Below, piece by piece: positions 6,878 through 59,526 of a DNA stretch of 64,000 nt. Positions within the stretch are counted from its first letter, which is position 1. Each line of letters opens with the position of its first letter. The notes below the pieces were generated by a model, which made no database searches, was not told the origin of the DNA, and was given only the letters and a program-made list of their open reading frames with translations. The DNA lies in the NCBI RefSeq assembly GCF_004765795.1, contig NZ_SBIV01000001.1:434001-498000 (forward strand), in the 5' to 3' direction. Made by a program: the position numbers and the translations under genes. The DNA comes from Halorussus marinus (lineage in GTDB: Archaea; Halobacteriota; Halobacteria; Halobacteriales; Haladaptataceae).

Positions 6878-6910
6878 CCCGGGCCGTTGTGCTCGGTGAT
6901 GACCGAGGCA

Positions 6911-6920
6911 ACATTAATGT
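6911..6920. promoter_or_regulatory. Short perfect palindrome in the promoter of the gene at 6948
   Basis: ACATTAATGT is a perfect 10-bp palindrome placed just upstream of a TATA-like GTTTAG box. It could be a core promoter element or a small operator. This rests only on symmetry and position. Confidence 0.3.
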
Positions 6921-6947
6921 CCGTTTAGCGTCAATTCAGCCCGAACC

Positions 6948-8506: not shown

Positions 8507-8621
8507 GGGCGTACGCACGGAATCTGGCGTGAAGTAAGTTCGTCCCCCGGAAAACGGGCCGGGTCGTCGCGTCGAGTCGCCCCGCCACACCGCATATGCG
8601 AGCCGAGCGCGTTGTTCACCT

Positions 8622-9341: not shown

Positions 9342-9384
9342 CGAACGTGGAACCTATTTGGGGGTTCCCCACCCACTCGGGGGT

Positions 9385-10278: not shown

Positions 10279-10363
10279 GACTCACGCCACAGAGCCGAAC
10301 GTGTTCGGGAGTAACGTATTTTGGTTTCGATACAACTTTTGAGTAACCACTGGGAATCCCACT

Positions 10364-12092: not shown

Positions 12093-12316
12093 GCGCCCGC
12101 GAGTCCGGAGGCCGCCCCGCAGAGTCCGGCGTCGGGAAGTCGGCGTCCGCCGCGATCGTTTAAGTGATTCTGGCGACAAGGAGTAGATACGAGCGAAGAC
12201 GCCTTCTACGGGCCGCCGCGATTCGACAGCCGCGGCGCCGCCCCGAGGCCGAGGGGTTCCGGCCGCGTTTCCCGAAACCGCAGGGGCTATTGTTCGGTTC
12301 CCGTAAGGGTCACACA

Positions 12317-17038: not shown

Positions 17039-18274
17039 CTACTGGGACTCTACTTCTTCGATCGCCGTGTTCGGCGCGTTTTGCTTCACGCCGTTGACCC
17101 CCTCGACCGCCCCGGAGCGATCGCTGTACCCCTCGCCGCCGGTGGCGAGGATGGTGCCGTTGCGGTGGCGGAGCCGCCAGCGGTACTCGCCGCCGGCGTC
17201 CTCGTAGATCTCGACGGCGGCCTCGCCGACCGTGAGCGCGTCCGCGTCCGGCGCGTACTCGCAGACTCGTTCGACCGCGTCAGTCGCGGCCGACCGGTCT
17301 GCATACCCCTGCCCGCCGTCGGCGATGAGCTCGTTGTTTGCGCTCAGGAGCCGCCAGCGGTGCTCGCCGCCGGCGTCCTCGTACACCTCGAACCGGGCGC
17401 CGTCGTCGGCGTCGACCGCCGCCTCGCCGGCCGTCTCCGCGACGGTCTCGACCGCCCGACGGGCGTTCGACCGGGAGACGTACCCCTCGCCCGAGTCGGC
17501 GAGTATCCGGCCGTTCCGGTGGACGAGCCGCCAGCGCCACTCGCTGGCCTTGTCGCGGTAGAGCTGGAACGTGGCGGTGCTCTCGTGGAGGCGCTCGAGG
17601 CGGGCTTGGGCGTCGGCGGCGCGCTCGCGCTCGGCGGCGGTCTCCTCGCTGGCCGCGTCGGCCGCCGCGGCCGCGGCGTCCCGGGAGTCGCTGAGTTCGT
17701 CGAGTTCGGCCTCCAGTCGCTCGATTCGGTCGGCCTTCTCCTCGAGCTCCGATCGGAGCGCCGACGCCTCTCGCTCGCGGTCCGCGGACGTCTCGCGGGC
17801 GGCGGCCAGCGCCGCCTCTGCGGCGCTCCGGGCGCGGCTCTGGCCCACGGTCACGGGCGCGAGGACTCCCGAGAAGGTGATGACGCCGAGTCCGAGCGTG
17901 TACAGCGCGATCACGTTCGTGGTCGCGGCTCGACCGAACTGCCACTCGAACGGGTAGACGGCTGTGAACCACCCGACGGCGGCGACACACACCGCGGCGC
18001 CGAGATACACCAGTAGCTTCGCCACCCGGTGGAACGACTGGCCGACCACGAGCCCGGTCAGCGCGCCGGCGAGGCCGAGCCCCGTCAGCGAGAACGCCAT
18101 CTCCCGGGTGGTGCCGATGCTCTCGGTACTCAACGCGAGCACCATGCCCGCGACCGCGGCCAGGACGCTGACCACGAACAGCCAGTAGCCGTACACTTCG
18201 TCGTTCGTCAGCGGTTCGCCGAACCGCTTGCGATACGTGCTCACGAGCGCGCTCTCCGACGTGTCAGTTGACAT
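17039..18274 (-). CDS. Membrane protein with coiled coil and three DUF1508 (YegP-type) repeats
   Basis: The 411-residue protein has three parts. Residues ~28-150 hold four hydrophobic segments. Residues ~152-235 form an Ala/Glu/Arg-rich coiled coil. The C-terminal half carries three copies of a ~50-residue unit, each with a YxDxxxEWRWRL or VYEDAGGEHRWRL core and a GEGYxxRSxAxxxV ending, which match DUF1508/HVO_2922-type domains. Such domains usually occur singly or in pairs in small soluble dimers; three behind a membrane anchor is uncommon. A TTATAATAC box ~50 bases upstream is the likely promoter. Function is unknown; the repeats probably sit in the cytoplasm. Confidence 0.85.
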   Translation of the reverse strand: MSTDTSESALVSTYRKRFGEPLTNDEVYGYWLFVVSVLAAVAGMVLALSTESIGTTREMAFSLTGLGLAGALTGLVVGQSFHRVAKLLVYLGAAVCVAAVGWFTAVYPFEWQFGRAATTNVIALYTLGLGVITFSGVLAPVTVGQSRARSAAEAALAAARETSADREREASALRSELEEKADRIERLEAELDELSDSRDAAAAAADAASEETAAERERAADAQARLERLHESTATFQLYRDKASEWRWRLVHRNGRILADSGEGYVSRSNARRAVETVAETAGEAAVDADDGARFEVYEDAGGEHRWRLLSANNELIADGGQGYADRSAATDAVERVCEYAPDADALTVGEAAVEIYEDAGGEYRWRLRHRNGTILATGGEGYSDRSGAVEGVNGVKQNAPNTAIEEVESQ

Positions 18275-34982: not shown

Positions 34983-35152
34983 CCGCCCGGAGTCGCCGCC
35001 CCGTTCGGTCGAAGCCTCGGTAGAGACACGCTACGCCGACGCCGTCGGACCGTCGCTCGCCGCGCGTTCGCCCCGGACTTGAGTCTGGCGCTCGGGGCCG
35101 GACCGGCCAGTTGGCCACTTGCTTTGTGTATCTGCGTCCAATGGTAGTACAC

Positions 35153-36643
35153 ATGCCAGACGACTTCTCGATAGACGCCGACTGGAACGCGCTTTACGTC
35201 GACGGCGAGTGGACCGACTCCGCCGGCGACGACGCCGTCGCGGTCGAGGACCCCTCGACGCGCGAGGCGGTCACCGAGGTCCCGGCCGGCGTCGAGGCCG
35301 ACGTCGACGCCGCCTACGAGGCCGCCGCGGCGGCCCAGACGGAGTGGGCCGACCAGCCGCCCGCCCGCCGCGAGGAGGCCGTACAGGAGTTCCTCGGCGC
35401 GCTTCAGGCCCACAGCGACGAGATCGTCGAGTTGCTCGCCCGCGAAGCCGGCGGCTCCCGGATCATGGGCGAGACCTCCGTCCAGATCGCCGCCGACCAC
35501 GCCGCCGAGGCGGCCACGCTCACTCGCCGGATGAAAGGCGAACACGCCGACTCGAACATCCCGGGCAAGGAGAACGTCGTCGAGCGCGGTCCGAAGGGCG
35601 TAGTCACGGTCATCTCGCCGTGGAACTTCCCGCTGAACCTCTCGATGCGGGCGGTCGCGCCCGCCATCGCGGCCGGGAACGCGGTCGTGCTCAAGCCCGC
35701 GACGAACACGCCGATCACGGGCGGGCTCCTGTTCGGCAAGCTGTTCGAGGAGGTCGGGCTCCCCGACGGCGTCCTCAACGTGGTCACCGGGCGGGGTTCG
35801 GACATCGGCGACCGGGTGGCGGGCCACCCCGAGAGCGACGTGGTGGCGTTCACCGGCTCGACATCGGTCGGCCGGCAGGTCGCGGCCACCGCCGCCGAGA
35901 ACCTCGCGGTCCCGACGATGGAACTGGGCGGGAACAACCCCTTCGTGGTGACCGCCGACGCCGGCCTCGATCGGGCGCTCGACGCCGCGTCGTTCGGCTC
36001 GTTCGTCCATCAGGGGCAGGTCTGTATCTCCATCAACCGCCACATCGTCCACGAGGACGTCTACGACGAGTACGTCGACCGACTCGCCGAGCGCGCGGCC
36101 TCGTTGCCCGCCGGCTCCGTCCACGACGACCAGACGGTCGTCGGCCCCATCATCGACGAGTCCCAGCGCGACGAGATGCTCGGCTACGTCGAGGAGACCG
36201 TCGAGGCGGGCGCGACCCTCGAAACCGGCGGCGAGACCGTCCCGGTCGACGGCGTCGACGACTCGCTCGTCGTCGCGCCCACGGTGCTGTCGGGCGTGAC
36301 AAACGACATGGCCGCGGCGTGCAACGAGCACTTCGGTCCGATCGCGCCCGTGATCCCGTTCTCGGACCTCGACGAGGCGGTCGAGATCGCGAACGACACC
36401 GAGTACGGCCTGTCGAGCGCGGTCCACGCGGGCGACCTCGGGGTCGCGAAGGACGTCGCCGACCGGCTCGAAACCGGCCACGTCCACATCAACGACCAGC
36501 CGATCAACGACGAGGCCCACGTCCCGTTCAGCGGGACCAAAGCCTCCGGGATGGGCTCGTACAACAGCGACGCCTTCCTCGACGAGATCACCGAGACGAA
36601 GTGGGTCTCGATCCAGCGCGAGCCCCGCGAGTACCCGTTCTGA
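35153..36643 (+). CDS. Aldehyde dehydrogenase family protein
   Basis: This NAD(P)-dependent enzyme oxidizes aldehydes to acids. The 496-residue protein has the N-terminal cofactor domain with VTVISPWNFPLNLSMRAVAPAIAAGN and VAFTGSTSVGRQVA, the catalytic Glu in MELGGNNPFVV, the catalytic Cys in FVHQGQVCISINR, and the C-terminal EHFGPIAPVIPF and HVHINDQPINDEAHVPF blocks. It most resembles benzaldehyde/vanillin dehydrogenase-like enzymes, but the substrate is not certain. The ATG at 35153 gives MPDDFSIDADWNALYVDGEW, a standard opening; an ATG at 35141 is possible. Confidence 0.93.
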   Translation: MPDDFSIDADWNALYVDGEWTDSAGDDAVAVEDPSTREAVTEVPAGVEADVDAAYEAAAAAQTEWADQPPARREEAVQEFLGALQAHSDEIVELLAREAGGSRIMGETSVQIAADHAAEAATLTRRMKGEHADSNIPGKENVVERGPKGVVTVISPWNFPLNLSMRAVAPAIAAGNAVVLKPATNTPITGGLLFGKLFEEVGLPDGVLNVVTGRGSDIGDRVAGHPESDVVAFTGSTSVGRQVAATAAENLAVPTMELGGNNPFVVTADAGLDRALDAASFGSFVHQGQVCISINRHIVHEDVYDEYVDRLAERAASLPAGSVHDDQTVVGPIIDESQRDEMLGYVEETVEAGATLETGGETVPVDGVDDSLVVAPTVLSGVTNDMAAACNEHFGPIAPVIPFSDLDEAVEIANDTEYGLSSAVHAGDLGVAKDVADRLETGHVHINDQPINDEAHVPFSGTKASGMGSYNSDAFLDEITETKWVSIQREPREYPF

Positions 36644-36731: not shown

Positions 36732-36744
36732 GTCACGGTGTGAC
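36732..36744. promoter_or_regulatory. Short palindrome upstream of the oxidoreductase operon
   Basis: GTCAC - GGT - GTGAC is a perfect inverted repeat ~50 bases upstream of a TTAAAG box (36791-36796) that precedes the operon. It could be an operator for an activator or repressor responding to oxygen or to the substrate. No regulator gene is adjacent. Confidence 0.4.
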
Positions 36745-36820
36745 GAACACGTTCCGGAGCGTCCCGAGTAGCTGAGAACGTGGTTTCCGGTTAAAGAGTT
36801 GGACACGCCGAGTGTCGGGT

Positions 36821-36871
36821 ATGGCACGCCAGCCGACACGATGCCGGACGAACCGAGGTGAGCACGCGTGA
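36821..36871 (+). CDS. Possible 16-codon leader peptide overlapping the alpha-subunit start
   Basis: A 16-codon reading frame (MARQPTRCRTNRGEHA) starts ~25-30 bases downstream of a TTAAAG box, the position expected for a leaderless start in haloarchaea. Its TGA overlaps the GTG of the alpha-subunit gene as GTGA, an arrangement that allows translational coupling. A GAGGTG ribosome-binding sequence for the GTG start lies inside it at 36855-36860. It may be a regulatory leader or merely a chance frame in a 5' leader. Confidence 0.4.
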   Translation: MARQPTRCRTNRGEHA

Positions 36872-39800
36872 GCCTCTCGCGACGCGACTTCATCAGGGGC
36901 GCGGGAGCGGGCGCGGTCGGCTCGCTACTCACCAGCGGGTGGGGCGCGACCCAGAGCATCGACCCCGTGACCGAGGTCGACAACCCCCTGCGGGGCTACC
37001 CCAACCGCGACTGGGAACAGGTGTACCACGACATCTACGCGTACGACGACGTCGACTGGACGGTGTGTCACCCCAACTGCACCCAGTCGTGTGCGCTCAA
37101 CTTCTACATGAAAAACGGGATCCCGATCAGGGCCGAGCAGGTCTACCACAACGAGGAGTCGAGCGTCGGCCCGTCGGGCTACGAGGACGCGGATGTCAGC
37201 CAGAACTGGAACCCCCGCGGGTGCATGAAGGGGCTGACGCTCCACCGCCGGACCTTCGAACCCAGTCGCATCAAGTACCCGATGGTCCGGAAAGGGTGGG
37301 ACCCCGACGACCCCAACCCGGAGGGCCGCGGCGAGGACGAGTTCGAGCGGGTCTCGTGGGACGAGGCGATCGATCTGGTCGCCGAGAAGATGGCGAGCCT
37401 CGACGACCGCAAACGGTTCCACATCTTCAACGCGATCAAGGCCGACGGGCTCATCACCCGCCACGGCGCTGGCCGGCGCCTCGCCTCCATCTTCGGGGGC
37501 TGTGAGTGGACCGAGTACGACTGGTACGCCGACCTGCCGCCGGGCCACGTCATCACGACGGGCTACCAGACCTCCGACGCCGACGCCGCCGACTGGCGCA
37601 AGGCCGACTACACCATCATCCAGGGCAAGAACCTCATCCACAACAAGCTCGCGGACAACCACTGGTTCCAGGAGATGCGCGAGCGCGGCGGCGAGATGGT
37701 CGGCATCTACCCCGACTACTCGCCGACCGTCCAGAAGTGCGACCGGTGGCTCCCCATCCGGCCGGGGTCGGACCCCGCGATCCCGCTCGGGTTCGCCCAC
37801 GTCATCATCAGCGAGGAGCTGTACGACCCCGACTTCGTGCGGAAGTTCACCAGCCTGCCCCTGCTGGTGCGGGCGGACGACGACAAGTACCTCCGGGCCC
37901 ACGAGGTGTTCGACGACCACGAGGCTCCCCCGGAGGACAGCCACGAACGCCACGAGAACGACGACTGGGGCGACTTCGTGGTCCTCGACCAGAACGGCGA
38001 CCCCGTCGCGGTCACCCGCGAGCAGGTCGGCGACGAGATGCCGGCGACGCCCCGACTCGACGCCGAGACCGAGCTCCGACTCGCCGACGGGTCGACGGTC
38101 GCGGTCGAGACCGACTTCTCGCGCCAGAAGCGCAACGTGCTGGAGAGCTACTCGCCCGAGCAGGTCGAGGAGATCACGACGGTCCCGGCCGACGCGATCC
38201 GGAAGACGGCGCGGGAGTTCGCCGATGCCGAGAACGGCCAGTGGTTCACCGGCGAGGGCATCAACCACTGGTTCCACGGTAACTCCGAGCTCCAGCGCTC
38301 GATCTTCTTCGTCCAGTCGATGCTCGGGAACGTCGGCAAGCCGGGGTCGGGCTACTACAACTACTCCGGCCAGTACAAGATCGAACTCCTCGACGGCTAC
38401 CCCGAGTACGTCAACCCCGACGGTCACGCGGCCCACGGGATGTACCCGGGGTACGCCTTCGCGTTCTTCGGCGGCGAGCAGTTGGACCCCCACGAGATCC
38501 GGGGCGATTTCGACCGGGAACTAGATCTCGTTCCGCAGGGCGACGCCGAGGAGCCGGTGATGCCGGAGGGGGCCGAGACGTACACGATGTCCAAGCCCAC
38601 CGTGTTGTGGACGATGAACTGCAACCTCCTGAACCAGACCAAACATCAGGAGCACGTCGTCAACAACTTCGTCAAGCACCCCGAGACCGAGAACGAGCTG
38701 TTCGTCGTCTCGGACATGCACATGACCTACTCGGCCCGCCACGCCGACGTCGTGTTCCCGGCGCCGTCGTGGCTGGAGTGTGAGTACCCCGACATCACCA
38801 TCGGGCCCGAGAACCCCTTCATCACGATGGACCACGGCGTGATGGACCCCATCTACGACACCAAACAGGACGGGGAGGTGCTCGCGCTTGTCGCCGAGAA
38901 GCTCGACGAGAAGATTCCGCCCGAGGAGCGCACCGTCGACTCGTACCGCTCGTACTTCGAGAAGTTCCTCGACGACGACGAGGACGTCTGCGATTACATC
39001 CAACAGACCCTCGATGCGGGGATCACCACTCAGGACATCGACGTCGAGGACCTCGAAGACGGGCCCGAGCGTCTGAATCTCAAGACCTACCCGCGGGTTC
39101 CGTTCTACTCGCAGGTGCACGACGATCGGCCCTTCTACACCAAGACCGGCCGGATGGAGTTCCACAAGGAGGAAGACCGGTTCGTGGACCTCGGACGCGG
39201 CGACCTCGACCACATCGAGAGCGTCGAGGGGACGCCATACGGCGTCAACGAGAAGTGGCCCGAGGCCGGCGAACAGGAGAATCCCCTCTACCACGACGAG
39301 GGCTACCAGTTCTACTACAACACGCCCCACAGCAAGTACCGGACTCACTCCTCGTGGGGGATGACCGACTGGAACCTGATCTGGTCGGCGCGGGACTTCG
39401 GGTCCACCAGCGCCGACCCCGAGGGCACCGAGCGACTCGTCGACGACTTCTCGTTCCCCGAAGGCGACGGCCAGACCAGCGACGCGCCGCCGCTCGGCGA
39501 GGCGTTCGTCGAGATTCATCCGAGCGACGCCGAGGACATCGGCGTGGAGAACGGCGACTACGTGCGCATCTCGGGCAAGCGCGGCGGGACGGTGGTCCGG
39601 GCGATGCTCAGCGAGCGCCAGCGCCCCGGGAAGGCGGGCGACATGGGACAGTTGACCCTCTGGCACGGCTGGTGGCCCCAGCACTTCCCGGACGACGAGG
39701 AGAAGGGCGACGACGAGGTCAAGGGGTTCAACACGACGACCAACATCTGGCTCGACCCCGGCCAAGAGACCGACGACCTCGTCCACAAGGCGGTGTTCGG

Positions 39801-40071
39801 CGACCCGAACGTCTCCGAGGAGGTCGGCGAGGAGATCGCGTGGCACGGCGCGGAACTCGAACACGGCTACGAGGAGACCGTCTGGGCCCCGACGGGCGTG
39901 AACCGCGACGACCTCGTGACCGTCGAGAAGTACGAGGAGGCCGACTGGTGGCCCGGCGACGCTCGGAAGGACGACCTCGTCGAGGACTACATCGGCGGGT
40001 CGCTCCAGTCGAAGGGCGGCGGGAGCGCGACGACCGACAGCGGCGGAACGACCACGCGAGGTGACGACTGA
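36868..40071 (+). CDS. Exported type II DMSO-reductase-family molybdopterin oxidoreductase, alpha subunit
   Basis: The 1067-residue protein is a Mo-bisMGD catalytic subunit related to NarG/DdhA/SerA/ClrA. It begins with a twin-arginine leader SRRDFIRGAG, so it is exported folded. A [4Fe-4S] site is formed by Cys67, Cys71, Cys75 and Cys119 (C-x3-C-x3-C, where NarG has His first). The type II molybdenum-ligand region is TTGYQTSDADAADWRKADY with an Asp as probable ligand. Other blocks are NGQWFTGEGINHWFHGNSELQRS, TYSARHADVVFPAPSWLE and the C-terminal MGQLTLWHGWWPQ. It heads the operon with beta, chaperone and gamma genes. Substrate is unknown; selenate, chlorate, nitrate or sulfur-compound chemistry are all conceivable. 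Confidence 0.92.
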   Translation: MSLSRRDFIRGAGAGAVGSLLTSGWGATQSIDPVTEVDNPLRGYPNRDWEQVYHDIYAYDDVDWTVCHPNCTQSCALNFYMKNGIPIRAEQVYHNEESSVGPSGYEDADVSQNWNPRGCMKGLTLHRRTFEPSRIKYPMVRKGWDPDDPNPEGRGEDEFERVSWDEAIDLVAEKMASLDDRKRFHIFNAIKADGLITRHGAGRRLASIFGGCEWTEYDWYADLPPGHVITTGYQTSDADAADWRKADYTIIQGKNLIHNKLADNHWFQEMRERGGEMVGIYPDYSPTVQKCDRWLPIRPGSDPAIPLGFAHVIISEELYDPDFVRKFTSLPLLVRADDDKYLRAHEVFDDHEAPPEDSHERHENDDWGDFVVLDQNGDPVAVTREQVGDEMPATPRLDAETELRLADGSTVAVETDFSRQKRNVLESYSPEQVEEITTVPADAIRKTAREFADAENGQWFTGEGINHWFHGNSELQRSIFFVQSMLGNVGKPGSGYYNYSGQYKIELLDGYPEYVNPDGHAAHGMYPGYAFAFFGGEQLDPHEIRGDFDRELDLVPQGDAEEPVMPEGAETYTMSKPTVLWTMNCNLLNQTKHQEHVVNNFVKHPETENELFVVSDMHMTYSARHADVVFPAPSWLECEYPDITIGPENPFITMDHGVMDPIYDTKQDGEVLALVAEKLDEKIPPEERTVDSYRSYFEKFLDDDEDVCDYIQQTLDAGITTQDIDVEDLEDGPERLNLKTYPRVPFYSQVHDDRPFYTKTGRMEFHKEEDRFVDLGRGDLDHIESVEGTPYGVNEKWPEAGEQENPLYHDEGYQFYYNTPHSKYRTHSSWGMTDWNLIWSARDFGSTSADPEGTERLVDDFSFPEGDGQTSDAPPLGEAFVEIHPSDAEDIGVENGDYVRISGKRGGTVVRAMLSERQRPGKAGDMGQLTLWHGWWPQHFPDDEEKGDDEVKGFNTTTNIWLDPGQETDDLVHKAVFGDPNVSEEVGEEIAWHGAELEHGYEETVWAPTGVNRDDLVTVEKYEEADWWPGDARKDDLVEDYIGGSLQSKGGGSATTDSGGTTTRGDD

Positions 40072-41252
40072 TGGCTGACGTGTACAACCCACAACTCGGC
40101 CGCGAGCACAGCTACCCCTACGAGCACCGCGAGGAGGACCGCGACTGGCACTGGGGGATGGTCATCAACATCAACCGGTGTATCAACTGCAACACCTGCT
40201 CGTTTGCCTGCAAGTCGACGTGGACCAGCGGCGAGGGCGAGGAGTACATGTGGTGGATGAACGTCGAGACCGAGCCCTACGGCGGCTATCCGATGGGCTG
40301 GGACATGCGACTGCTCGACGATCTGGGCGCCGACGAGACCGTCTTCGAGGCGGCCGACGACGGCGAGCAGGTCGAGGGCTACGTCGCCCAGAAGGAGGCG
40401 TGGGAGTACCCCGCCCTCGGCGACGATCAGGTCCACGGCGAGTACCCAGAGGGCGAGGTCGTCGAGAGCGACCCCGAGGAGGGGACTTACCACGACATGT
40501 GGCAGTTCTACCTGCCCCGCCTGTGCAACCACTGCAAGAACCCGGCCTGCCTCGCGGCGTGCCCGCGGAAGGCGATCTACAAGCGCGAGGAGGACGGCAT
40601 CGTCCTGCTCGACCAGGAGCGGTGTCGGGGGTATCGCAAGTGCGTGAAGGCCTGTCCGTACCACAAGCCGATGTACAACCCCGAGACCGGCGTCTCCGAG
40701 AAGCCCGTCGGCTGTTTCCCGCGAATCGAGGAGGGAAACGTCCCCCGGTGTGTCTCCTCGTGTATCGGGAAGACCCGGCTCCACGGCAACATCAACCGCG
40801 GTCCCGACGCCGGTCGGCCCAACGGCGTGAAGTCGGCCGCGAGCGGCCGGAGCCCGGTGAACTATCTGGTCCACTCCGACGAGAAGATCGCGCTCCCGCT
40901 GTACCCGCAGTTCGGGACCCGACCGCAGGTGTTCTACATGCCGCCCTACCACGTCCCGCCGGAGTTCCTGACCCAGATGTTCACCCCGAACACCGAGACC
41001 AAGCGCAACGACTGGCCCGGCGACACCTACGAGGAGAGCGTCGAGATCGTCCAACAGCGCGTCCGGAACCCCAGCCACCACGTCCTCGGCATCCTCCAAC
41101 TGTTCGGCGCGACCACCCGGCTCATCGAGACGTACAACGTCAAGGAAAACCGGGTGAAGGGCTGGGACCGGAAGGGCAACAAGGTGGTCGACATGCCCAT
41201 CGAGGAGGACCTCGAGGTGCGCGAGGGCGAACAGTGGACGAACCAACCGTGA
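40071..41252 (+). CDS. Iron-sulfur beta subunit of the type II DMSO-reductase-family enzyme
   Basis: The 393-residue protein carries electrons between the alpha and gamma subunits and is NarH/DdhB-like. Four Cys blocks are visible: Cys37, 40, 43, 47; Cys152, 155, 160, 164; Cys185, Tyr188, Cys191, Cys195 (the CRGYRKC block that holds a [3Fe-4S] cluster); and a fourth block with Pro212, Cys215, Cys227, Cys231. In NarH/DdhB the residue at the Pro212 position is a Cys, so one [4Fe-4S] ligand appears to be missing. It has no signal peptide and would be exported with the alpha subunit. The ATG shares one base with the alpha stop (TGATG). Confidence 0.93.
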   Translation: MADVYNPQLGREHSYPYEHREEDRDWHWGMVININRCINCNTCSFACKSTWTSGEGEEYMWWMNVETEPYGGYPMGWDMRLLDDLGADETVFEAADDGEQVEGYVAQKEAWEYPALGDDQVHGEYPEGEVVESDPEEGTYHDMWQFYLPRLCNHCKNPACLAACPRKAIYKREEDGIVLLDQERCRGYRKCVKACPYHKPMYNPETGVSEKPVGCFPRIEEGNVPRCVSSCIGKTRLHGNINRGPDAGRPNGVKSAASGRSPVNYLVHSDEKIALPLYPQFGTRPQVFYMPPYHVPPEFLTQMFTPNTETKRNDWPGDTYEESVEIVQQRVRNPSHHVLGILQLFGATTRLIETYNVKENRVKGWDRKGNKVVDMPIEEDLEVREGEQWTNQP

Positions 41253-41262
41253 GGCGCCAGTC

Positions 41263-42006
41263 ATGGACGACACACCACCCGCGGAACGACACGCCGCCCG
41301 GGCCGCCCTCTACAGCGCCGCGGCGGGGGCGTTTTGCTACCCGGACGAGAGCACCGTGCGCGAACTGACCCACCCCGACGCCGCCGAGGGGATCAGGTCG
41401 GCCGCCGAGACGCTCGGCTTCGAGGCCGAGGCCGAGGCGGTGGTCGACGCGCTCGATCGGACCGACCGCGAGGCGCTCGAATCTGCGTACAACGGGCTGT
41501 TCGGACTGCCGACCGACGACGGCACCTACCCCGTCGTCCCCTACGAGGTCGAGTACACGGTCGGCGACGAGGTCGGCCGCCAACAGCGCCGGATCGCCAC
41601 CGTGGTCGGCCTGCTGGAGGCGTTCGGCGTCGAGCCCGCCGAGGAGTTCGACGAGCGCCACGACCACGTCGTCGTGGAACTCGAACTCGCGCAGGTGCTT
41701 GCGGCCCGCCGGGCGGTCGCCGCCGAGGAGGGCGACCGCGAGACGGCCGACAACCTCGAAGGCGCGGAAGCGACCGTCCTCGACGAGCATCTCACGGACT
41801 TCGTGCCGGCGTTCGCCCACGCGGTCCGGAACGCGACCGCCGATCCCGACGCCGAGGACGCGTCCGACCGAGTCGACGCCGGCGAGGCCGCCGAACTGGT
41901 CTACCGGGCGGCCGCGGACCTCGCCGAGGCGCTCGTGACGTGGGACGCCGGAATCCACCCCGAGCCGACGGTCGAGCCCGAGACGGAGGTGCGCTCGCAT
42001 GCCTGA
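41263..42006 (+). CDS. TorD-family assembly chaperone (delta subunit)
   Basis: The 247-residue, all-helical acidic protein matches the TorD/NarJ/DmsD family of redox-enzyme maturation proteins, which bind the alpha subunit before export and help insert the molybdenum cofactor. It has the family's YxxxFGL element (ESAYNGLFGLPTDDGTYPVVPYEVEYT near residues 72-98), a FDERHDHVVVELELAQVL segment and an FVPAFAHAV segment. It is 10 bases after the beta gene and overlaps the gamma gene by eight bases. The order alpha-beta-delta-gamma is that of dimethylsulfide dehydrogenase and chlorate or selenate reductase operons. Confidence 0.88.
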   Translation: MDDTPPAERHAARAALYSAAAGAFCYPDESTVRELTHPDAAEGIRSAAETLGFEAEAEAVVDALDRTDREALESAYNGLFGLPTDDGTYPVVPYEVEYTVGDEVGRQQRRIATVVGLLEAFGVEPAEEFDERHDHVVVELELAQVLAARRAVAAEEGDRETADNLEGAEATVLDEHLTDFVPAFAHAVRNATADPDAEDASDRVDAGEAAELVYRAAADLAEALVTWDAGIHPEPTVEPETEVRSHA

Positions 42007-43003
42007 CCGGACCGCGGCGGTGCGCGCGACCGTCGTGACGGCGGTCGTGCTCGCGGCGCTCGTCGTCGGTCAGGCCGCGGTCGGAGCCGCGGTCACGAGC
42101 GGCTCCCAGCCGGTGCGGGCCGTCGAGTCGGTGCCCGGGGATCCGGCCGCCGACGCGTGGACCGACGCACCCGAGCGCACCGTCTCGCTGTCCGAACAGC
42201 AGATGGCGGTGCCGTTCGGGGGCGGGAGCGTCGAGGAGCTGACCGTCCAGACGGTCCGCAACGACACCCACACCGCGTTCCGGCTGTCGTGGGCCGACCC
42301 GACGAGGGACGCGAACATCGACCGGCCGCGCAACTTCAGCGACGCCGCCGCGATCATGCTCCGGAGCGGCGACAAGCCGCCGATCACGATGGGGGCGGCC
42401 GGCAAGCCGGTCGACATCTGGTACTGGCGCGCGAGCTGGCAGGCCGCCGAGACCGGCGACTCGGGGTCGATGTACGCCTACCCGCACCCGGACAACGAGA
42501 CCAAGCCCGGCCGGGCGGCGGGCAACCCCCTCTCGAACGCCGAGTACGACCGGTACGCCCAGAACTACTACGCGACCGGCTACGGCTCGCTGACCCACGC
42601 GCCCGCCCAGAACGTCCGGGCGAACGGCGAGCGCACCGAGGACGGCTGGTCGGTCGCGTTCGTCCGCGAGCACTCGACCGACGGCGAGTACGACCCCGAC
42701 TTCGCGAGCGCCGACAACGTCTATCTCGCGTTCGCGGTGTGGAACGGGAGCGCCGACGAGGTCAACGGCGAGAAGTCGCTCACCCTCCGGTTCACCCAGC
42801 TCGACACCGAGAACTGGGAGCTGAGCGACGCGTCGACCGGGTCGAGCGGCGCCGACGACGGCGGCGACTCCGCGAGCGCCGAGAGCGACACCTCGGGCGA
42901 GGAGGGGTCGTGGCTCACCGAGTCGGTGAGCAACTGGGTGGTCGGTCTCGTGGCGACGATGCTGCTCACATGGTCGTTCGTCTACTGGAGGGCCAGAGAA
43001 TGA
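41999..43003 (+). CDS. Heme-b gamma subunit, ethylbenzene-dehydrogenase-related
   Basis: The 334-residue protein has a Sec-type signal (residues ~11-32), a beta-rich external domain and a C-terminal transmembrane segment (SNWVVGLVATMLLTWSFVYW), so it faces outward and is anchored at its C terminus. The domain matches the ethylbenzene dehydrogenase/DdhC/SerC heme-binding family: RLSWADPTRD, DAAAIMLRSGDKPPITMGAAGKPVDIWYWRASWQ and the DGWSVAFVRE and DNVYLAFAVWNGS strands. These proteins bind one heme b by Met and Lys and pass electrons to or from quinones or cytochromes. It completes an alpha-beta-gamma complex and supplies the membrane anchor. Confidence 0.88.
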   Translation: MPDRTAAVRATVVTAVVLAALVVGQAAVGAAVTSGSQPVRAVESVPGDPAADAWTDAPERTVSLSEQQMAVPFGGGSVEELTVQTVRNDTHTAFRLSWADPTRDANIDRPRNFSDAAAIMLRSGDKPPITMGAAGKPVDIWYWRASWQAAETGDSGSMYAYPHPDNETKPGRAAGNPLSNAEYDRYAQNYYATGYGSLTHAPAQNVRANGERTEDGWSVAFVREHSTDGEYDPDFASADNVYLAFAVWNGSADEVNGEKSLTLRFTQLDTENWELSDASTGSSGADDGGDSASAESDTSGEEGSWLTESVSNWVVGLVATMLLTWSFVYWRARE

Positions 43004-43872
43004 CCGAGTACGCGAATCGGAGCGCCCGGGCTCACGCCCCGGCCGACGACGAGGCCGACCTCCGGAGCCTGCTCGCGTCGCCCCGCGAACCCGAGCGCCG
43101 CGACGCCGCGCTCGCGCTGGTCGACCGCGCCGACGAGGCGGGAATAGACGAGGCGACGATCGGGGCGCTCGCCGAACGGGTCCGGACCGACGACTCGACC
43201 GACGTCCGGCAGTTCGCGGTCGAGGCCCTCGGGGCCGGCGGGCCCGCCCAGCGGGCTGAGCGGGCGATCCGAGCCGCGCTCGACCGCGACGGCGACAAGT
43301 GGGTCCGGGCGGAGGCGGTCGTCGCGCTCTCGCGGGTCGCGCCCGACGACGGGGCATCCCTGCGGGCGGCGCTCGACGACGACAGCGGCTTCGTCCGCCG
43401 GAACGCGGTCATCGCGCTCGGCAAGACCGGCGCCGGGACCGACGAGACGTTCGCCGACCGGCTCAAGAACGATCCCCACCCGGCGGTCCGGGAGTACGCC
43501 GCGCAGTTCCTCGGGCGCACCGCCGACGACGTCCCGGAGGCGGTCCGACTGCTGGCCGCGATTCTCGCCCGCGAGCCCGAGGCGTTCGTCCGGGCGAAGG
43601 CCGCCGACGCGCTCGGAGAGCTCGGCACCGACCGCGCCGAGCAAGCCATCGAGACCCACGGCCTCACCGACCGGAGCGACGACGTGCGCCGGGCGGCCGA
43701 GACCGCGCTCGCGGCGGCCCGTGGCGTCGATCCCGACCACCTCGACGTCGACGTCGAGGAGCCGTCGCCGCCGGGCGGCGGCCCCCAGTCGCCCCGAGAG
43801 ACGCCGAAGGGCGGGCCGTCGCCCGAGCCCAAGGGACCCGGCCCGAGTCGGGAGTTCGAGTTCGACAGGTGA
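43000..43872 (+). CDS. HEAT-repeat protein of the oxidoreductase operon
   Basis: The 290-residue soluble protein has about seven HEAT/PBS-lyase-like repeats between residues ~25 and 230, each ~31 residues, e.g. DSTDVRQFAVEALGAGG, DKWVRAEAVVALSRVAPDD, DSGFVRRNAVIALGKTG, HPAVREYAAQFLGRTAD and AFVRAKAADALGELGTD. The C-terminal ~50 residues are a Pro/Gly/Ser/Glu-rich tail. HEAT proteins act as scaffolds, so a role in assembly or protein contact of the complex is possible. It overlaps the gamma gene by four bases (ATGA), so it is made with the enzyme. Confidence 0.88.
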   Translation: MTEYANRSARAHAPADDEADLRSLLASPREPERRDAALALVDRADEAGIDEATIGALAERVRTDDSTDVRQFAVEALGAGGPAQRAERAIRAALDRDGDKWVRAEAVVALSRVAPDDGASLRAALDDDSGFVRRNAVIALGKTGAGTDETFADRLKNDPHPAVREYAAQFLGRTADDVPEAVRLLAAILAREPEAFVRAKAADALGELGTDRAEQAIETHGLTDRSDDVRRAAETALAAARGVDPDHLDVDVEEPSPPGGGPQSPRETPKGGPSPEPKGPGPSREFEFDR

Positions 43873-43876
43873 TTCC

Positions 43877-44455
43877 ATGACCGGACAGACCAGATCGACA
43901 GATTCGAGCGGCACCGACGGAGAATCGCTGGGCGTAAGCGTCCCTGACGAGCACGTCGGGGCGTTCGTCGCCGAGGCGTTCGAGGACGTCGAGCGCGACA
44001 CGACGTGGAAGGAGGTCGTGGGCGCGCTCGTGGCCGAGGAGGCCCGCGACGCGTGGGCGGACCTCTCGCGAACCGAGCAGGCCGTGGAGGTGCTCGCCGC
44101 CGCGGCCGACTACGACGAGCGGGCGGTCGAGCTGTTGGCCGAGGTGCCGACCGACCGCGGCGAGCCGACCTCGGAGATCCGCGACCGCTACGAGGAGGCG
44201 CTCCGGTGTCGGCACAACGCCGACCGCTTCCGGGACGGCATCGCGGCGGCGTACGCCGACGGCTACCTCGCCGACGACCAGCTGGTGGCCGCTGTCGAGG
44301 CGTTCGGCTTCGATACCGCACTCATCGCCGAGCGCGAGGACGAACTCGACACCGTCGCCAACACCTACGAGTTCGAGTTCCGCCCGTACGGCGGGACGCT
44401 GATGACCGACGACGAGGGGGACGACCAGACGATGGACGGCTTCGAGGCGTGGTAA
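43877..44455 (+). CDS. Unknown protein of the oxidoreductase operon
   Basis: The 192-residue protein is acidic and mostly helical, with no signal or membrane segment and no motif I recognize. Notable segments are TTWKEVVGALVAEEARDAWADL, SRTEQAVEVLAAAADYDERAVELL and YEEALRCRHNADRFRDGIAAAYADGYL; the C terminus ends FEFRPYGGTLMTDDEG and a tail. It lies four bases after the HEAT gene and one base before the Mrp-like gene. A role in maturation or regulation of the enzyme is inferred only from position. Confidence 0.75.
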   Translation: MTGQTRSTDSSGTDGESLGVSVPDEHVGAFVAEAFEDVERDTTWKEVVGALVAEEARDAWADLSRTEQAVEVLAAAADYDERAVELLAEVPTDRGEPTSEIRDRYEEALRCRHNADRFRDGIAAAYADGYLADDQLVAAVEAFGFDTALIAEREDELDTVANTYEFEFRPYGGTLMTDDEGDDQTMDGFEAW

Positions 44456-44456
44456 C

Positions 44457-45713
44457 ATGACTGAAGAACTCACCGAGCGCGTCAGGGAGGCGATCGCGAC
44501 CGTCGACGATCCAGATCTGGGGACGAGCGTGGTCGAGACGGGGCTCGTGACCGACGTGTCGGTCGCCGACGCGACCGCGACCGTCCGCGTCGAGTTCGCG
44601 GGCGCGGACCCCGGAGACGCCGAGGAGGTCGTCGAGGAGGTCCGGAGCGCGGCCTTCGAGGTCGCGGGCGTCGAGCGCGTCCGCGTCGAGGGCGACACCC
44701 CCGAGCCAGAGAGCGAGGGGGACGCGACCGGCGCGCTCGACGGCGTCGAGCAGGTGCTCGCGGTGATGAGCGCGAAGGGCGGGGTCGGAAAGACGACCGT
44801 GGCGACCCACCTCGCCCGCGCGCTGGCCGACGACTACGACGTGGGGCTGTTCGACGCCGACATCCACGGCCCGAACGTCCCCGAGATGCTCGGGATCGAG
44901 GGGCCCGCGCAGGCGACCGACGACGGGCTCGCCGCGCCGACGGAGGTCGACGGCATCGAGGCGATGAGCGTCGGACTGCTCGCCGGCGACGAGCCCCTTG
45001 CGTGGCGGGGCGCGATGGCCCACGACGCGCTCACCGAGCTCCTCGAAGACACCGCCTGGAGCGACCGCGACGTGCTGGTGGTCGACATGCCGCCCGGCAC
45101 GGGCGACGTGGCGCTCACGATGCTTCAGGAGGTGGCGGTCGCCGGCGTCGTCCTCGTGAGCACGCCGTTCCCGACCAGCCTGTCGGACACGGCCCGGAGC
45201 GCCGCGCTGGTCGAGGAGAACGGCGTCCCGGTCGTCGGGGCCGCGATCAACATGCGCGGGTTCGAGTGCGAGGCGTGCGGTCACCGCCACGACCTCTACG
45301 GCGGGGACGACCCCGAGTCGGAGCTCGGCGTGCCCGTGCTGGCCGAACTCCCGTTCGACCGGTCGCTCCAGCGCCCCGACGACGCCGCGGCGCCCGACCC
45401 GATCGCGGCGCTCGCCGAGGGGGTCGCCGACCACCTCGAATCGACCGAGGCGGGCGGCGTCTCGGTCCCGGACTCCGCGCTCGACGTCCGGGGACTGCCC
45501 CCGCAGGTGCGCCACGAGCAGGTGGGCGCGGAGTTCCGCGCGCTCGACCCCGGAGAGGCCTTCTACGTGGTGAACGACCACGACCCCTCGCCGCTCGCGG
45601 AGCTCCTGGCCGGGGAGGTCGCGGACGGGTCGGCCGACGAGGCCTTCGACACCTGCGAGGTCCACCGCCGCGGCCCCGACGAGTGGGTGCTCGAAGTCGA
45701 ACGCCCCTCGTAG
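44457..45713 (+). CDS. DUF59-Mrp/NBP35 ATPase-DUF2249 fusion protein
   Basis: The 418-residue protein has three parts. Residues 1-~80 look like a DUF59/MIP18 domain. Residues ~97-335 are an Mrp/NBP35 P-loop ATPase with the deviant Walker A KGGVGKTT at 107-114, DADIHGPNVPEMLG, VVDMPPGTGDVALT and a CEAC pair near residue 265 that binds a bridging [4Fe-4S] cluster. Residues ~345-418 (LDVRGLPPQVRHEQV, YVVNDHDPSPL) resemble DUF2249, a small domain found with respiratory and nitrite/nitric-oxide genes. Mrp proteins deliver iron-sulfur clusters, so this one probably matures the beta or alpha subunit. The DUF2249 fusion is unusual. Confidence 0.88.
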   Translation: MTEELTERVREAIATVDDPDLGTSVVETGLVTDVSVADATATVRVEFAGADPGDAEEVVEEVRSAAFEVAGVERVRVEGDTPEPESEGDATGALDGVEQVLAVMSAKGGVGKTTVATHLARALADDYDVGLFDADIHGPNVPEMLGIEGPAQATDDGLAAPTEVDGIEAMSVGLLAGDEPLAWRGAMAHDALTELLEDTAWSDRDVLVVDMPPGTGDVALTMLQEVAVAGVVLVSTPFPTSLSDTARSAALVEENGVPVVGAAINMRGFECEACGHRHDLYGGDDPESELGVPVLAELPFDRSLQRPDDAAAPDPIAALAEGVADHLESTEAGGVSVPDSALDVRGLPPQVRHEQVGAEFRALDPGEAFYVVNDHDPSPLAELLAGEVADGSADEAFDTCEVHRRGPDEWVLEVERPS

Positions 45714-45723
45714 CCCCCGATCC

Positions 45724-46182
45724 ATGCGCGCCAGCGACGACGCGTCCGGGACGGAGTCGGTCACGGTGATCGGCGACGCCGCGGTCTCGGTCCCGTCCGA
45801 CCCCCGGCGGGTCGGCGACGACACCCGAGTCGCGACCCGCGAGTGGTCGTTCCGATGTGCCTCCGGCGACGAGATCGCGGGCCCGTGGTCGGGGATCGCG
45901 CTGGACGAGCTACTCGCGGCCGCCGACCCGCCCGACGCGACGACGCATCTCGCGGTCGAGGGCGAGGACGGCTACCGGGCCTGCGTCCCTATCGCGGACG
46001 CGCTCGACGGCCTGCTCGCGTACCGCCGCGCGGGCGCCGCCTGCGGGGGCGCGCCGCGATTCCTCGCGCCCGGCGTCTCCGGAGTCCGGACGGTCAAGCG
46101 GGTCGCCCGGATCGAGGCGCTCGAACTCCCGGCCGGAGCCGACCCCGAGGACCGCGAGGCGCTGGTGCTCGCCGAGAAGTAG
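45724..46182 (+). CDS. Small sulfite-oxidase-fold molybdopterin-binding-like protein
   Basis: The 152-residue protein resembles a short version of the sulfite oxidase molybdopterin domain: EWSFRCASGDEIAGPWSGIALDELLAAA (with a Cys where the Mo ligand would be), GYRACVPIADAL, and RFLAPGVSGVRTVKRVARIEAL near the C terminus. It has no signal peptide. It is the last gene of the oxidoreductase operon. It could carry, insert or sense the cofactor rather than catalyse. Similarity is weak enough that activity is uncertain. Confidence 0.75.
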   Translation: MRASDDASGTESVTVIGDAAVSVPSDPRRVGDDTRVATREWSFRCASGDEIAGPWSGIALDELLAAADPPDATTHLAVEGEDGYRACVPIADALDGLLAYRRAGAACGGAPRFLAPGVSGVRTVKRVARIEALELPAGADPEDREALVLAEK

Positions 46183-46230: not shown

Positions 46231-46413
46231 TCAGGCCGCGAGCAGGGGCACCGCGTAGGCCACGACCAGCCCGATCGCGAGGACGGCGAAGCCGATGGCG
46301 ACCTGCCGCATCGAGAACTCCTGCATCGGCGAGGTGACTCGGTCGAGCCCCTCGACGTCGTGGCCGTGCGCTTCGCCGCTGTGCAAGTCGTCGGCGTCCG
46401 CGTGGTCGCTCAT
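46231..46413 (-). CDS. Small membrane protein, His-rich N terminus
   Basis: The 60-residue protein has a His/Asp-rich N terminus ([19 protein letters not shown]), a conserved-looking [15 protein letters not shown] stretch and one transmembrane helix to the end. From memory it resembles a haloarchaea-only family (possibly DUF7550). Function is unknown; the His-rich end might bind metal. It is transcribed opposite to the oxidoreductase operon. Confidence 0.7.
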
Positions 46414-46555
46414 ACGTCGGGGTTGCCGCCCCGTCCACTTAAACGCATCCGAACCGGGTCCGCGCGCCGGGCGCGGGCGGGCGCCTCGGCGCCCAGAGCC
46501 GGTGGATGGTTCCGGCAGTGCAAGAGTTACGTGCCGGCTCCGTCGAGTGAGAGTA

Positions 46556-47455
46556 ATGAACCCGACCGGTGCGATCCTCGGCGTCCTCCTCGCGGTCGGC
46601 GCGGCGATCGCGGTCGCCGTCCAGTCGGTGTCGGTTCGGGTTGGCACCGACGACGGACGGGCGACCGACGCGCTCGTCGTCGTGCTCGCGACGAACATCC
46701 TGCTCGTCGTGCCCGCCGCCGCGGTGGTCCACTATCCGACCTACTCGCTGACGCTCCGGGCGATCGCCGCGTTCGTCGCGGCCGGGGCCGTCGGGACGCT
46801 CCTCGGTCGGATCTTCTACTACACGAGCATCGAGCGGATCGGCGCGAGCCGCTCGGAGCCGCTGAAGGCGTCCCAGCCGCTCCACGCCACCGCGATCGCG
46901 GTCGTCGTGCTCGGCGAACGCGTGACCGCCGGCCACGTCGCCGGTATCCTGCTCATCGTCGCGGGCGTGGCGGCGATCTCGTGGGAGACCTCCCGGGGCG
47001 ACGGCGCCGACGGCGACTCCTCGGCGCTCGCGCTGGCGTTGCCCCTGGCGGCCGCGTTCCTCTTCGGTATCGAGCCGACGCTGGCGAAAGTCGGGTTCGC
47101 CGAGGGCACGCCGATTCTGGTCGGGCTCGCGATCAAGACGGTTGCGGCCACCGCGGGGTTTCTCGCGTACCTCCGGGCGCGAAACGACCTGCCGAGCCTC
47201 GGAGCGCTCGCCGACTCGAACGCGAAGTGGTACGCGGTCGCGGGGCTCGCGAACACCGGGTTCCTCTGTCTCTACTACCTCGCGCTGTCGGTCGCGCCCG
47301 TGTCGGTCGTGGTGCCGATCATCCAGACCAGCCCGCTGATCGTGATGGTGCTGTCGGTGGCGTTCCTCTCGCGGCTGGAGCGGGTCACCTGGAAACTGCT
47401 GGCCGGGGCGTGTATCGTCGTCGGCGGCGCCGTCGTGCTGACGGCGTTCGCGTGA
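46556..47455 (+). CDS. EamA/DMT-family transporter
   Basis: The 299-residue membrane protein has ten hydrophobic segments in two EamA repeats of five. [27 protein letters not shown] at the end of the first repeat and [24 protein letters not shown] at the end of the second are the typical EamA closures. The family exports or imports metabolites such as amino acids, purines or sugars; the substrate is unknown. It precedes hisF by 50 bases but no functional link is evident. Confidence 0.9.
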
Positions 47456-57573: not shown

Positions 57574-59526
57574 ATGAGCGACAGCATGACCGAGGTCGTA
57601 ACCGCCGAGGAGGGCGGTGTCGTCGTCGAGAAGTCATTCGAGGGCGACGAGTTCGCGGTCCCCGCGATCAAGTTCGTGATCCGGAGCGAGCGAGACGACT
57701 CGACGACGATCACGCTGGCCGACGACGTTCCCGAGTCGTTCCCGATGGACAACGTCGGCTTCCACCCCGACTACGAGAACGACAACTGGACGGCCTACAA
57801 GGACCACCGGGTCCAGTTCGAGCGCGAACTCGACCCCGGCGAGGAGCTGGTCACGGTGTACGGCGTCCGACTCGGCGAGGACGACGACCCCTCGATCTTC
57901 CTCGGATCGCCCACCATCGAGCAGGTCGCCCCCGCCTCGGTCGGCGGGACCGACGAGGCGGACGGCGGCCCGGACCCCCTCGGCGGAGACGTCGGCGACG
58001 ACGACCCCCTCGAGGACGGCCCCGATCCGCTCGGCGGCGAGGTGGGCGGTCCTGAGGGCAACACCATCACCGACATCGTCTCCGAGGAGGACAGCCAGAT
58101 CGTCCGGGACGTGGTCGCCGGCGAGGAAGACCTCTCGCTCGACGACGAGGCGGACGCGCCGACCGACGGCGACGAGCCGCTTGCCGACCCCGACGGGGAA
58201 GCCGGCGCGGGCGAAGAGTCGGACCCGCTGGCCGACGACGAGGCGTCGGCGGGCCCGCCGGACGAGGACGGCGAGCCGTCGACCGACGACCTCGACGAGG
58301 CGGACCCGCTCGGCGCCCCGGACGAGCGACCGGCGGACGCCGACGACCCGAGCGCGCCCGACGAGGGAGCCGACGATTCGACGGGTAGCGTGTCCGACGA
58401 AGGAGTCGACGACCCGATGGGCGACGAGCCCGACGAGGCGACGCCGGCCGCCGACCACGAGCCCGATTCGTCGGCGGACGCCGGAACCGCCTCGCCGCCG
58501 ACCCCGGGGAGCGTCGCGGCCACGCTCGCCGAGGAGATCCGCGCGGGCGAGGTGTCCGACGACGACCTCGACGTCATCCAGCGCGAACTCGACGTCGAGA
58601 CGCCAGAGAGCACCAACGTCCGCATCCGGCACCTCCAGTCGCGAGTCGAGGACCTCTCGGCGTACACCGAGGCCCTAGAGGAGTTCATCGACGAGAACGG
58701 CGTGGCCGAGGACGTGTTCGCGGACTTCGAGACCGACATCGCGAGCCTCCGGGCCGACGTCGAGGCGTTCGAGGACGAGGTTCAGGCGATCCGGACCGAT
58801 GCCGACGACACCGACGACCGGGTCGCGGAGCTGGACTCTTCGCTCTCGGGCGTCGAATCGGAGGTCGACGAGGTGGCCGAGGGGCTGGCGGCGGTCGAAG
58901 AGGACCTCGACGACGTGGCCGACCTCGACGCGGTCGAGGCGTTGCGCGCGGACCTCTCGGGCGTCGAGTCGGAGGTCGACGAGGTGGCAGAGGGGCTGGC
59001 GGCGGTCGAAGACGACCTCGACGACGCGGCCGACCTCGACGCGGTCGAGGCGTTGCGCGCGGACCTGACCGATCTGGAGGCCGACCTCGATTCGGTCGGC
59101 GACCTGCGCGAGCAGGTGTCGGCGCTGGAGGCCGAACTCGAGGACGCCGGGGACTTCGAGGCGGAGTTCGACGCCCTCGACGACCGGATCGACGACCTCG
59201 AAGAGCTCGTCGGCGCGAACACCGAGGACGTGACCGCGGTCGGCGCCGAGGTCGAGGAGCTGACCGACGAGATGGCCGACCTCCGGACCGAGATCGAGGC
59301 CGCGACCGACGCGGCCGAGGAGATCGAGTCGGTGGCGGCCGACGTCGAGTCGCTGTCGGACGACCTCGACGCGCTGGAGGAGAACCTCACCGCGCGCGTC
59401 GAGAGCGTCGAAGACGAGGTCGCCGACATCCGCGAGGGCGTCGAGCGCGACGTCGCCGACATCCGCGAGGAGATCGACGGCATCCAGGAGTGGCGCGACC
59501 GGATCAGCGACGTGTTCGGCAACTGA
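57574..59526 (+). CDS. Large coiled-coil protein with duplicated 37-residue repeat
   Basis: The 650-residue protein has three parts. Residues ~1-110 form a beta-rich domain (VVVEKSFEGDEFAVPAIKFVIRS and later DPGEELVTVYGVRL). Residues ~125-310 are an acidic Asp/Pro/Gly-rich linker. Residues ~325-645 form a long coiled coil with heptad pattern, including two almost identical 37-residue units (SGVESEVDEVAEGLAAVEEDL and so on) and a related third. It has no signal or membrane segment. The overall design, a head domain on a long coiled coil, is that of a structural or docking protein; I do not recognize the family. Confidence 0.75.
   Translation: MSDSMTEVVTAEEGGVVVEKSFEGDEFAVPAIKFVIRSERDDSTTITLADDVPESFPMDNVGFHPDYENDNWTAYKDHRVQFERELDPGEELVTVYGVRLGEDDDPSIFLGSPTIEQVAPASVGGTDEADGGPDPLGGDVGDDDPLEDGPDPLGGEVGGPEGNTITDIVSEEDSQIVRDVVAGEEDLSLDDEADAPTDGDEPLADPDGEAGAGEESDPLADDEASAGPPDEDGEPSTDDLDEADPLGAPDERPADADDPSAPDEGADDSTGSVSDEGVDDPMGDEPDEATPAADHEPDSSADAGTASPPTPGSVAATLAEEIRAGEVSDDDLDVIQRELDVETPESTNVRIRHLQSRVEDLSAYTEALEEFIDENGVAEDVFADFETDIASLRADVEAFEDEVQAIRTDADDTDDRVAELDSSLSGVESEVDEVAEGLAAVEEDLDDVADLDAVEALRADLSGVESEVDEVAEGLAAVEDDLDDAADLDAVEALRADLTDLEADLDSVGDLREQVSALEAELEDAGDFEAEFDALDDRIDDLEELVGANTEDVTAVGAEVEELTDEMADLRTEIEAATDAAEEIESVAADVESLSDDLDALEENLTARVESVEDEVADIREGVERDVADIREEIDGIQEWRDRISDVFGN
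58843..59064. repeat. Two tandem 111-bp repeats in the coiled-coil gene
   Basis: The units begin with CTCTCGGG at 58843 and at 58954, exactly 111 bases (37 codons) apart, with only a few differences between them. They keep the coiled-coil register nearly in phase (37 residues is five heptads plus two). Confidence 0.85.

Follow-up and report, generated by a model that had tools for sequence, protein, structure and literature searches.

We found that an eight-gene operon in a 64,000-nucleotide stretch of DNA from Halorussus marinus (contig NZ_SBIV01000001.1, positions 434,001 to 498,000; hereafter the window) likely encodes a second extracytoplasmic nitrate oxidoreductase of the nitrite oxidoreductase (NXR) type, one that would function mainly as a nitrate reductase (NAR) in denitrification. 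The operon contains genes for a catalytic alpha subunit, an iron-sulfur (Fe-S) beta subunit, a TorD-type chaperone, a haem gamma subunit, and four accessory proteins. Kinship, residues, neighbouring genes, and the promoter all give good support to the predicted substrate class, nitrate/nitrite. Our evidence is the set of genes present, their phylogeny, the conservation of catalytic and haem residues, the co-occurrence of the operon with nirK and nor and its proximity to them, and a common promoter motif. From it we infer the substrate, the direction of the reaction, the source of the electrons, and what the accessory proteins do.

The initial annotation of this DNA proposed an operon for an exported type II enzyme of the DMSO reductase family with an unknown substrate. 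The enzyme class was correct: alpha has a twin-arginine translocation (Tat) motif and the Asp ligand to molybdenum (Mo). The substrate can now be narrowed to nitrate/nitrite.

Kinship of the alpha and beta subunits

Among proteins of solved structure, the closest relatives of alpha and beta are the subunits of NXR-ABC from Kuenenia stuttgartiensis (PDB 7b04). The dimethyl sulfide dehydrogenase, selenate reductase, and chlorate reductase to which the operon had initially been likened are thus not the nearest kin found. Alpha scored 452 bits against Kuenenia NxrA, 268 against PcrA, 186-193 against Escherichia coli NarG, and 160 against EbdA. The best solved relative of beta was Kuenenia NxrB (284 bits). 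Alpha is only 28-35% identical to haloarchaeal NarG (pNarG). Scores against the NCBIfam models TIGR03479 and TIGR03478 were below the curated cut-offs (426 vs 985 bits for alpha and 237 vs 481 for beta).

We built two alpha trees, one with 60 rows and a more careful one with 29 rows, and one beta tree; all are unrooted. In all three, alpha or beta of the window and its close haloarchaeal relatives (clade A) group with bacterial NXR-type enzymes and with a second haloarchaeal group, clade C. In the alpha trees, clade A is sister to clade C plus bacterial NXR (support 100/100); in the 29-row tree the forks that matter have support of 100/100 or 100/99. Clade B, the canonical haloarchaeal NarG, sits with bacterial NarG, joined in the alpha trees by PcrA. 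That is, alpha falls in none of the clades of established substrate that were tested (pNar, NarG, PcrA, ClrA, EbdA, and bacterial NXR): in the alpha trees it lies outside both the bacterial NXR clade and the haloarchaeal NarG clade, and in the 60-row tree it lies outside the ClrA/EbdA clade. We rejected ClrA as the closest kin because both ClrA and EbdA are found beyond the A/C/NXR group in the 60-row tree. The NXR rows were picked by similarity to Kuenenia and are mostly from metagenome-assembled genomes (MAGs), with the direction of the reaction unassigned; the PcrA and EbdA rows are incomplete, taken from HMMER alignments; and SerA and DdhA were not among the rows, with ClrA and EbdA serving as their stand-ins.

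The residues that characterize NAR and NXR are present. The Asn over Mo and the Asp that ligates Mo (in the motif YDWYAD), residues common to NAR and NXR whose roles are taken from work on Kuenenia NXR (PMC8387239), are conserved in all clade-A rows. ClrA and EbdA are without the substrate Asn. The Fe-S cluster FS0 has four Cys in all clade-A rows (Cys67, Cys71, Cys75, and Cys119). In contrast, the ligands are 3 Cys and 1 His in clade B and NarG (H-x3-C-x3-C) and 3 Cys and 1 Asp in Kuenenia. Several rows of the bacterial NXR clade are also all-Cys, so the 3 Cys/1 Asp pattern is not a strict criterion for NXR. Across the aligned gammas of clade A, pNar, and bacteria, just one Met and one Lys position are invariant, Met131 and Lys259. 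The haem of Kuenenia NxrC is ligated by Met and Lys (PMC8387239), and these two residues are candidate ligands that fit an NxrC-like haem. The Tat motif SRRDF was found on alpha of the window and on alpha of those clade-A loci in which the start could be placed.

Clade A shares other features with Kuenenia NXR and the bacterial NxrA/NxrB, including stretches of sequence (QTSD and GKNLI-x-NK), a gamma of the EB_dh type, and a TorD gene, which is found in most of the bacterial clusters. PcrA, ClrA, and EbdA resemble clade A in their type II fold, the Asp ligand, and the alpha-beta-TorD gene logic, and the ClrA and EbdA systems also have an EB_dh-type gamma. Judged by sequence, clade A is neither canonical pNar (from which it differs in phylogeny, the FS0 His, and the Rieske/cytochrome b genes) nor part of the bacterial NXR clade (from which it differs in phylogeny and the FS0 Asp). 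It is a new clade-level variant inside the known NAR/NXR superfamily.

Clade C (L058, L059, and L009) is a third haloarchaeal type of alpha, about 1050-1200 aa long and sister to bacterial NXR in the alpha trees. In those sequences with a complete N-terminus, FS0 has 3 Cys and 1 Asp, and in L009 and L059 a gene of the Mrp-DUF2249 type adjoins alpha. It may correspond to the "longer Natrialbaceae NarG" (PMC8400030) and to the NarG without the FS0 His (PMC8301774). We also found NxrA-like alpha genes in MAGs of many phyla without known nitrification, including Omnitrophota, Elusimicrobia, Marinimicrobia, Bacteroidetes, and Poribacteria (loci include L081, L083, L087, L098, and L119).

Accessory genes, distribution, and denitrification context

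The accessory genes of the operon are largely those of the canonical pNar operon. In Haloferax larsenii (L008), the pNar operon consists of genes for a hypothetical protein, Rieske protein, cytochrome b, a small protein, NarG, NarH, EB_dh gamma, TorD, a hypothetical protein, a HEAT protein, a P-loop NTPase, a small molybdopterin protein, and MobA. The HEAT, Mrp-DUF2249, and SUOX-type genes are in the same order in the operon of the window, and the products are 46% (over 166 aa), 46%, and 43% identical to their pNar counterparts, respectively. The Mrp-DUF2249 gene of Haloferax mediterranei (E6P09_17415) is within the nar operon and is induced under denitrification (log2FC 3.60; PMC11218638). 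The accessory set had initially been thought to be undescribed. It is the pNar set, and the main argument for novelty therefore fails; we rejected the set as a new feature. The initial annotation took the operon for a candidate new respiratory system, a view to be refuted if alpha fell inside a clade of established substrate and the same accessory genes were already characterized. The accessory genes are indeed known, but no paper found characterizes the clade of alpha.

In addition to these accessory genes, the pNar systems of Haloferax larsenii and Haloferax mediterranei share with clade A a Tat-exported alpha, beta, gamma, TorD, and the promoter motif described below. In contrast to pNar, the clade-A operon is without the genes for Rieske protein, cytochrome b, the small protein, and MobA, and alpha is in another clade. 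The hypothetical protein of the pNar operon (299 aa) is replaced by a dissimilar protein of 192 aa; we rejected a relationship between the two, which are similarly placed, because they have no similarity. The model of the 192-aa protein is all-helical (pLDDT 83), and a fold search against the PDB gave no significant match. All 18 clade-A loci have its gene, and no other locus scanned does. The Mrp protein had been described as a fused carrier. The fusion is real and has three parts: FeS_assembly_P, an NTPase of the NUBPL type, and DUF2249. Based on these comparisons, the operon is best described as an NXR-like core, a putative haloarchaeal nar maturation set, and one clade-specific protein.

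Clade A was found in 35 of 392 sampled Halobacteria genomes, in several families and at 75-89% identity; two of the copies are frame-broken pieces. There was no clade-A sequence in about 250 genomes from each of three bacterial phyla or in a sample of Halobacteriota outside Halobacteria. A close bacterial source was rejected, as none was seen in the three-phylum samples. The gene order alpha-beta-TorD-gamma-HEAT-unknown was kept in 16 of 16 clade-A genomes in which neighbourhoods were read (with a pair from Halobaculum treated separately), and the Mrp gene follows in 15 (it was not detected in L043). Halobaculum roseum and Halobaculum magnesiiphilum have the full accessory set. The SUOX-type gene was present in only 3 of 18 clade-A loci besides the window. 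A chance gene cluster is ruled out by the homologues, which keep the gene order of the window across the clade-A loci examined. None of these operons contains a Rieske or cytochrome b gene. In the Halobaculum genomes the clade-A alpha is annotated merely as "molybdopterin-dependent oxidoreductase".

We scanned 81 bacterial NXR loci, one of them on an Alisedimentitalea plasmid. TorD relatives were present in 64 and gamma relatives in 60. There were no HEAT or SUOX relatives, and the sole Mrp match, a plain Mrp, was on the plasmid. This conjugative plasmid, from Alisedimentitalea scapharcae (L010), has a type II alpha-beta-TorD-cytochrome c-Mrp cluster (6672-13387) adjoining a gene of the chlorite dismutase family.

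The clade-A operon is not the only nitrate reductase operon of its host. We rejected that idea because contig C8 of the same genome holds a full canonical pNar operon (L041) that includes genes for Rieske protein and cytochrome b. Of the 35 clade-A genomes, 17 yielded a canonical NarG (fragmented in two of them) and 18 did not; one of the latter (G024) has a clade-C alpha instead. In these 18, any cytochrome b found was no closer to NarC than about 41%, and 11 of them had no NarC-like cytochrome b at all at E 1e-10. Several of the genome searches scored only two or three candidates per genome, so absences are soft.

Genomes with clade A nearly always have the later enzymes of denitrification. 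We found nirK in 32 of 35 clade-A genomes, compared to 184 of 357 others (Fisher p = 1.7e-6), and Nor in 34 of 35. The operon has nirK or nor as a neighbour within about 15 kb in 11 of the 35 genomes (five genera), compared to an expectation of about 0.7. On the plasmids of Halobaculum magnesiiphilum and Halobaculum roseum, the order is formate/nitrite transporter, halocyanin, MoaD, clade-A operon, Nor, and nirK. Immediately upstream of the operon on these plasmids (L005 11024-14321 and the same place in L006) is a cluster encoding a radical-SAM/SPASM protein, a halocyanin, a candidate ribosomally synthesized and post-translationally modified peptide of the Htur_1727 type, and a pseudo-SAM protein; parts of this cluster recur by clade-A operons in other genera.

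The promoter region also resembles that of denitrification genes. A motif of the CGAA-N4-TTCG type, which has been mutated experimentally in promoters of Haloferax mediterranei (PMC10062603), was found at -107 to -127 from alpha in 13 of 17 clade-A loci. Ten loci have it in the stretch from -140 to -110, compared to 0.4 expected.

Proposed function and alternatives

We propose that alpha and beta would be folded in the cytoplasm with the TorD chaperone, and that the Mrp-DUF2249, HEAT, and 192-aa helical proteins probably aid the insertion of Fe-S clusters and molybdenum cofactor. The Tat signal of alpha would export the complex, and gamma, with its putative Met/Lys haem b and C-terminal anchor-like helix, would tether it to the outside of the membrane. 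Since the operon has no Rieske/cytochrome b module such as that of pNar, we propose a halocyanin-like electron donor. Electrons would probably move from this carrier through the gamma haem and beta clusters to the Mo site, and the nitrite produced would pass to NirK and then to Nor. Nitrate reduction is favored because of the denitrification-type regulation and the nearly constant company of NirK and Nor.

Several points weigh against a function in nitrate reduction. The nearest characterized enzyme is a nitrite oxidoreductase, and the NXR of Kuenenia works in both directions (PMC8387239). Among the clade-A loci examined, none has a quinol-oxidising module with the operon. With a complete pNar operon also present in the genome of the window, a second nitrate reductase would seem superfluous. 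In that genome, nirK and nor are adjacent to each other on contig C3 and not near the operon. The copy of the motif in the window has one mismatch, and four loci of one family (f4; L044, L047, L050, and L056) are without the motif at that position. Lastly, the counts take no account of common descent among the loci, which makes the p-values optimistic. Chance is nevertheless an unlikely explanation, given the conserved position of the motif and the number of genera.

Nitrite oxidation is the first alternative because of the kinship to NXR, a gamma haem that is probably of high potential, and the lack of a quinol-oxidising module. A functional nitrite oxidoreductase would convert nitrite to nitrate outside the membrane, and beta and the gamma haem would pass the electrons on to a halocyanin and a terminal oxidase. 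The grouping of both alpha and beta with the NXR clade and an EB_dh gamma with Met and Lys, as in Kuenenia NxrC, are consistent with this, and the 17 of 35 clade-A genomes that also keep canonical pNar suggest a different job for the second enzyme. We consider it unlikely: the denitrification motif and the near-constant NirK and Nor argue for reduction, clade A falls outside the clade of bacterial NXR and is sister to a group that also contains clade C, for which no direction is assigned, and no archaeal nitrite oxidiser was found in the literature. Slightly more doubtful is the wider reading that haloarchaea with this operon carry out nitrite oxidation, or a bidirectional reaction, by way of the gamma haem and a halocyanin, in which case clade A would also be an early branch of the lineage that gave rise to bacterial NXR.

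It is also improbable, a shade more so, that the main role of the enzyme is to reduce some other oxyanion (chlorate, perchlorate, bromate, iodate, or selenate) and that nitrate is a secondary substrate. Promiscuity is a trait of type II enzymes (PMC6650914), and the more distant relative on the Alisedimentitalea plasmid adjoins a chlorite dismutase gene. In contrast, the neighbours in the clade-A loci examined include nirK, nor, and a nitrite transporter, regulation resembles that of denitrification, and clade A has kept the substrate Asn that is absent in ClrA. Least probable of all is a redundant duplicate that borrows NarB-NarC (Rieske/cytochrome b) encoded elsewhere and only adds nitrate-reducing capacity: the pNar operon of this genome could supply these proteins and the accessory genes are homologous to those of pNar, but in about half of the clade-A genomes no canonical NarG and no close NarC were found, alpha is only about 33% identical to pNarG, and gamma carries its own anchor-like helix at the C-terminus.

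In sum, the clade-A enzyme probably works like pNar, NXR, or both, and a nitrate reductase of NXR type is the reading that we favor. We found no paper in the open-access literature on clade A, on an archaeal nitrite oxidiser, or on a second haloarchaeal type of Nar, and none on nitrate phenotypes of Halobaculum magnesiiphilum or Halobaculum roseum. The papers found describe haloarchaeal nitrate respiration through one enzyme, pNar; the clade-A operon would represent a second, uncharacterized one. It is present in about a tenth of the sampled haloarchaea, and in about half of those genomes no other alpha of the pNar or NXR type was detected. Surveys keyed to canonical NarG would overlook it. 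Its sister clade holds NXR, the main nitrate-forming enzyme of the biosphere. Two questions can thus be asked in culturable archaea: how an enzyme of the NAR/NXR type runs without a quinol-oxidising module, and how the reversible NXR lineage originated.

Gene coordinates and other features of the window

The eight genes are tightly packed between 36868 and 46182, with neighbours overlapping by at most 8 bases or separated by at most 10 (Table 1). Gene limits are from the sequence and domains from NCBIfam and Pfam. The initial annotation had all eight genes contiguous and in the correct order, which we found on one strand, and began the unit at 36821. The ATG at 36821 is in a different frame from alpha and soon meets a stop. 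The start codon of alpha is a GTG at 36868, giving the N-terminus MSLSRRDFI with the Tat motif SRRDFI. Gamma has a hydrophobic stretch at its N-terminus, in addition to the C-terminal helix.

Table 1. Genes of the clade-A operon and its promoter motif, in window coordinates.
Feature	Position	Strand	Remark
alpha, catalytic molybdopterin subunit, NXR/NAR superfamily clade A	36868..40071	+	predicted to be Tat-exported
beta, Fe-S electron wire, NxrB-like	40071..41252	+	
TorD/NarJ-type assembly chaperone	41263..42006	+	
gamma, EB_dh-type haem b protein	41999..43003	+	candidate ligands Met131 and Lys259
HEAT-repeat protein	43000..43872	+	homologue of pNar-operon HEAT protein
192-aa protein, all-helical (model)	43877..44455	+	fold unassigned; clade-A operons only
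Mrp/NUBPL-type Fe-S carrier NTPase	44457..45713	+	fused to FeS_assembly_P and DUF2249
small Oxidored_molyb (SUOX-fold) protein	45724..46182	+	in some clade-A operons only
denitrification-type promoter motif CGAACACGTTCC	36744..36755	.	one mismatch to CGAA-N4-TTCG; 124 bases 5' of alpha start

The operon is flanked by an aldehyde dehydrogenase gene upstream (35111-36643) and an EamA transporter gene downstream (in 46295-47455). The initial annotation pointed to menaquinone and transport genes nearby. The window does contain menaquinone-type genes (enoyl-CoA hydratase family, 9385-10278; UbiA family, 12164-13258; AMP-binding, 14300-15850) and ABC substrate-binding/permease genes (10364-12092). 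These are more than 20 kb upstream with unrelated genes between, so we rejected them as parts of this system.

Two other genes in the window are of note. One (17039-18274, minus strand) encodes a 411-aa protein with three DUF1508 repeats and a DUF7139, both domains of unassigned function. The other (57574-59526, plus strand) is a 650-aa open reading frame whose product is very acidic and has Pfam matches of the coiled-coil type only, mostly of low specificity.

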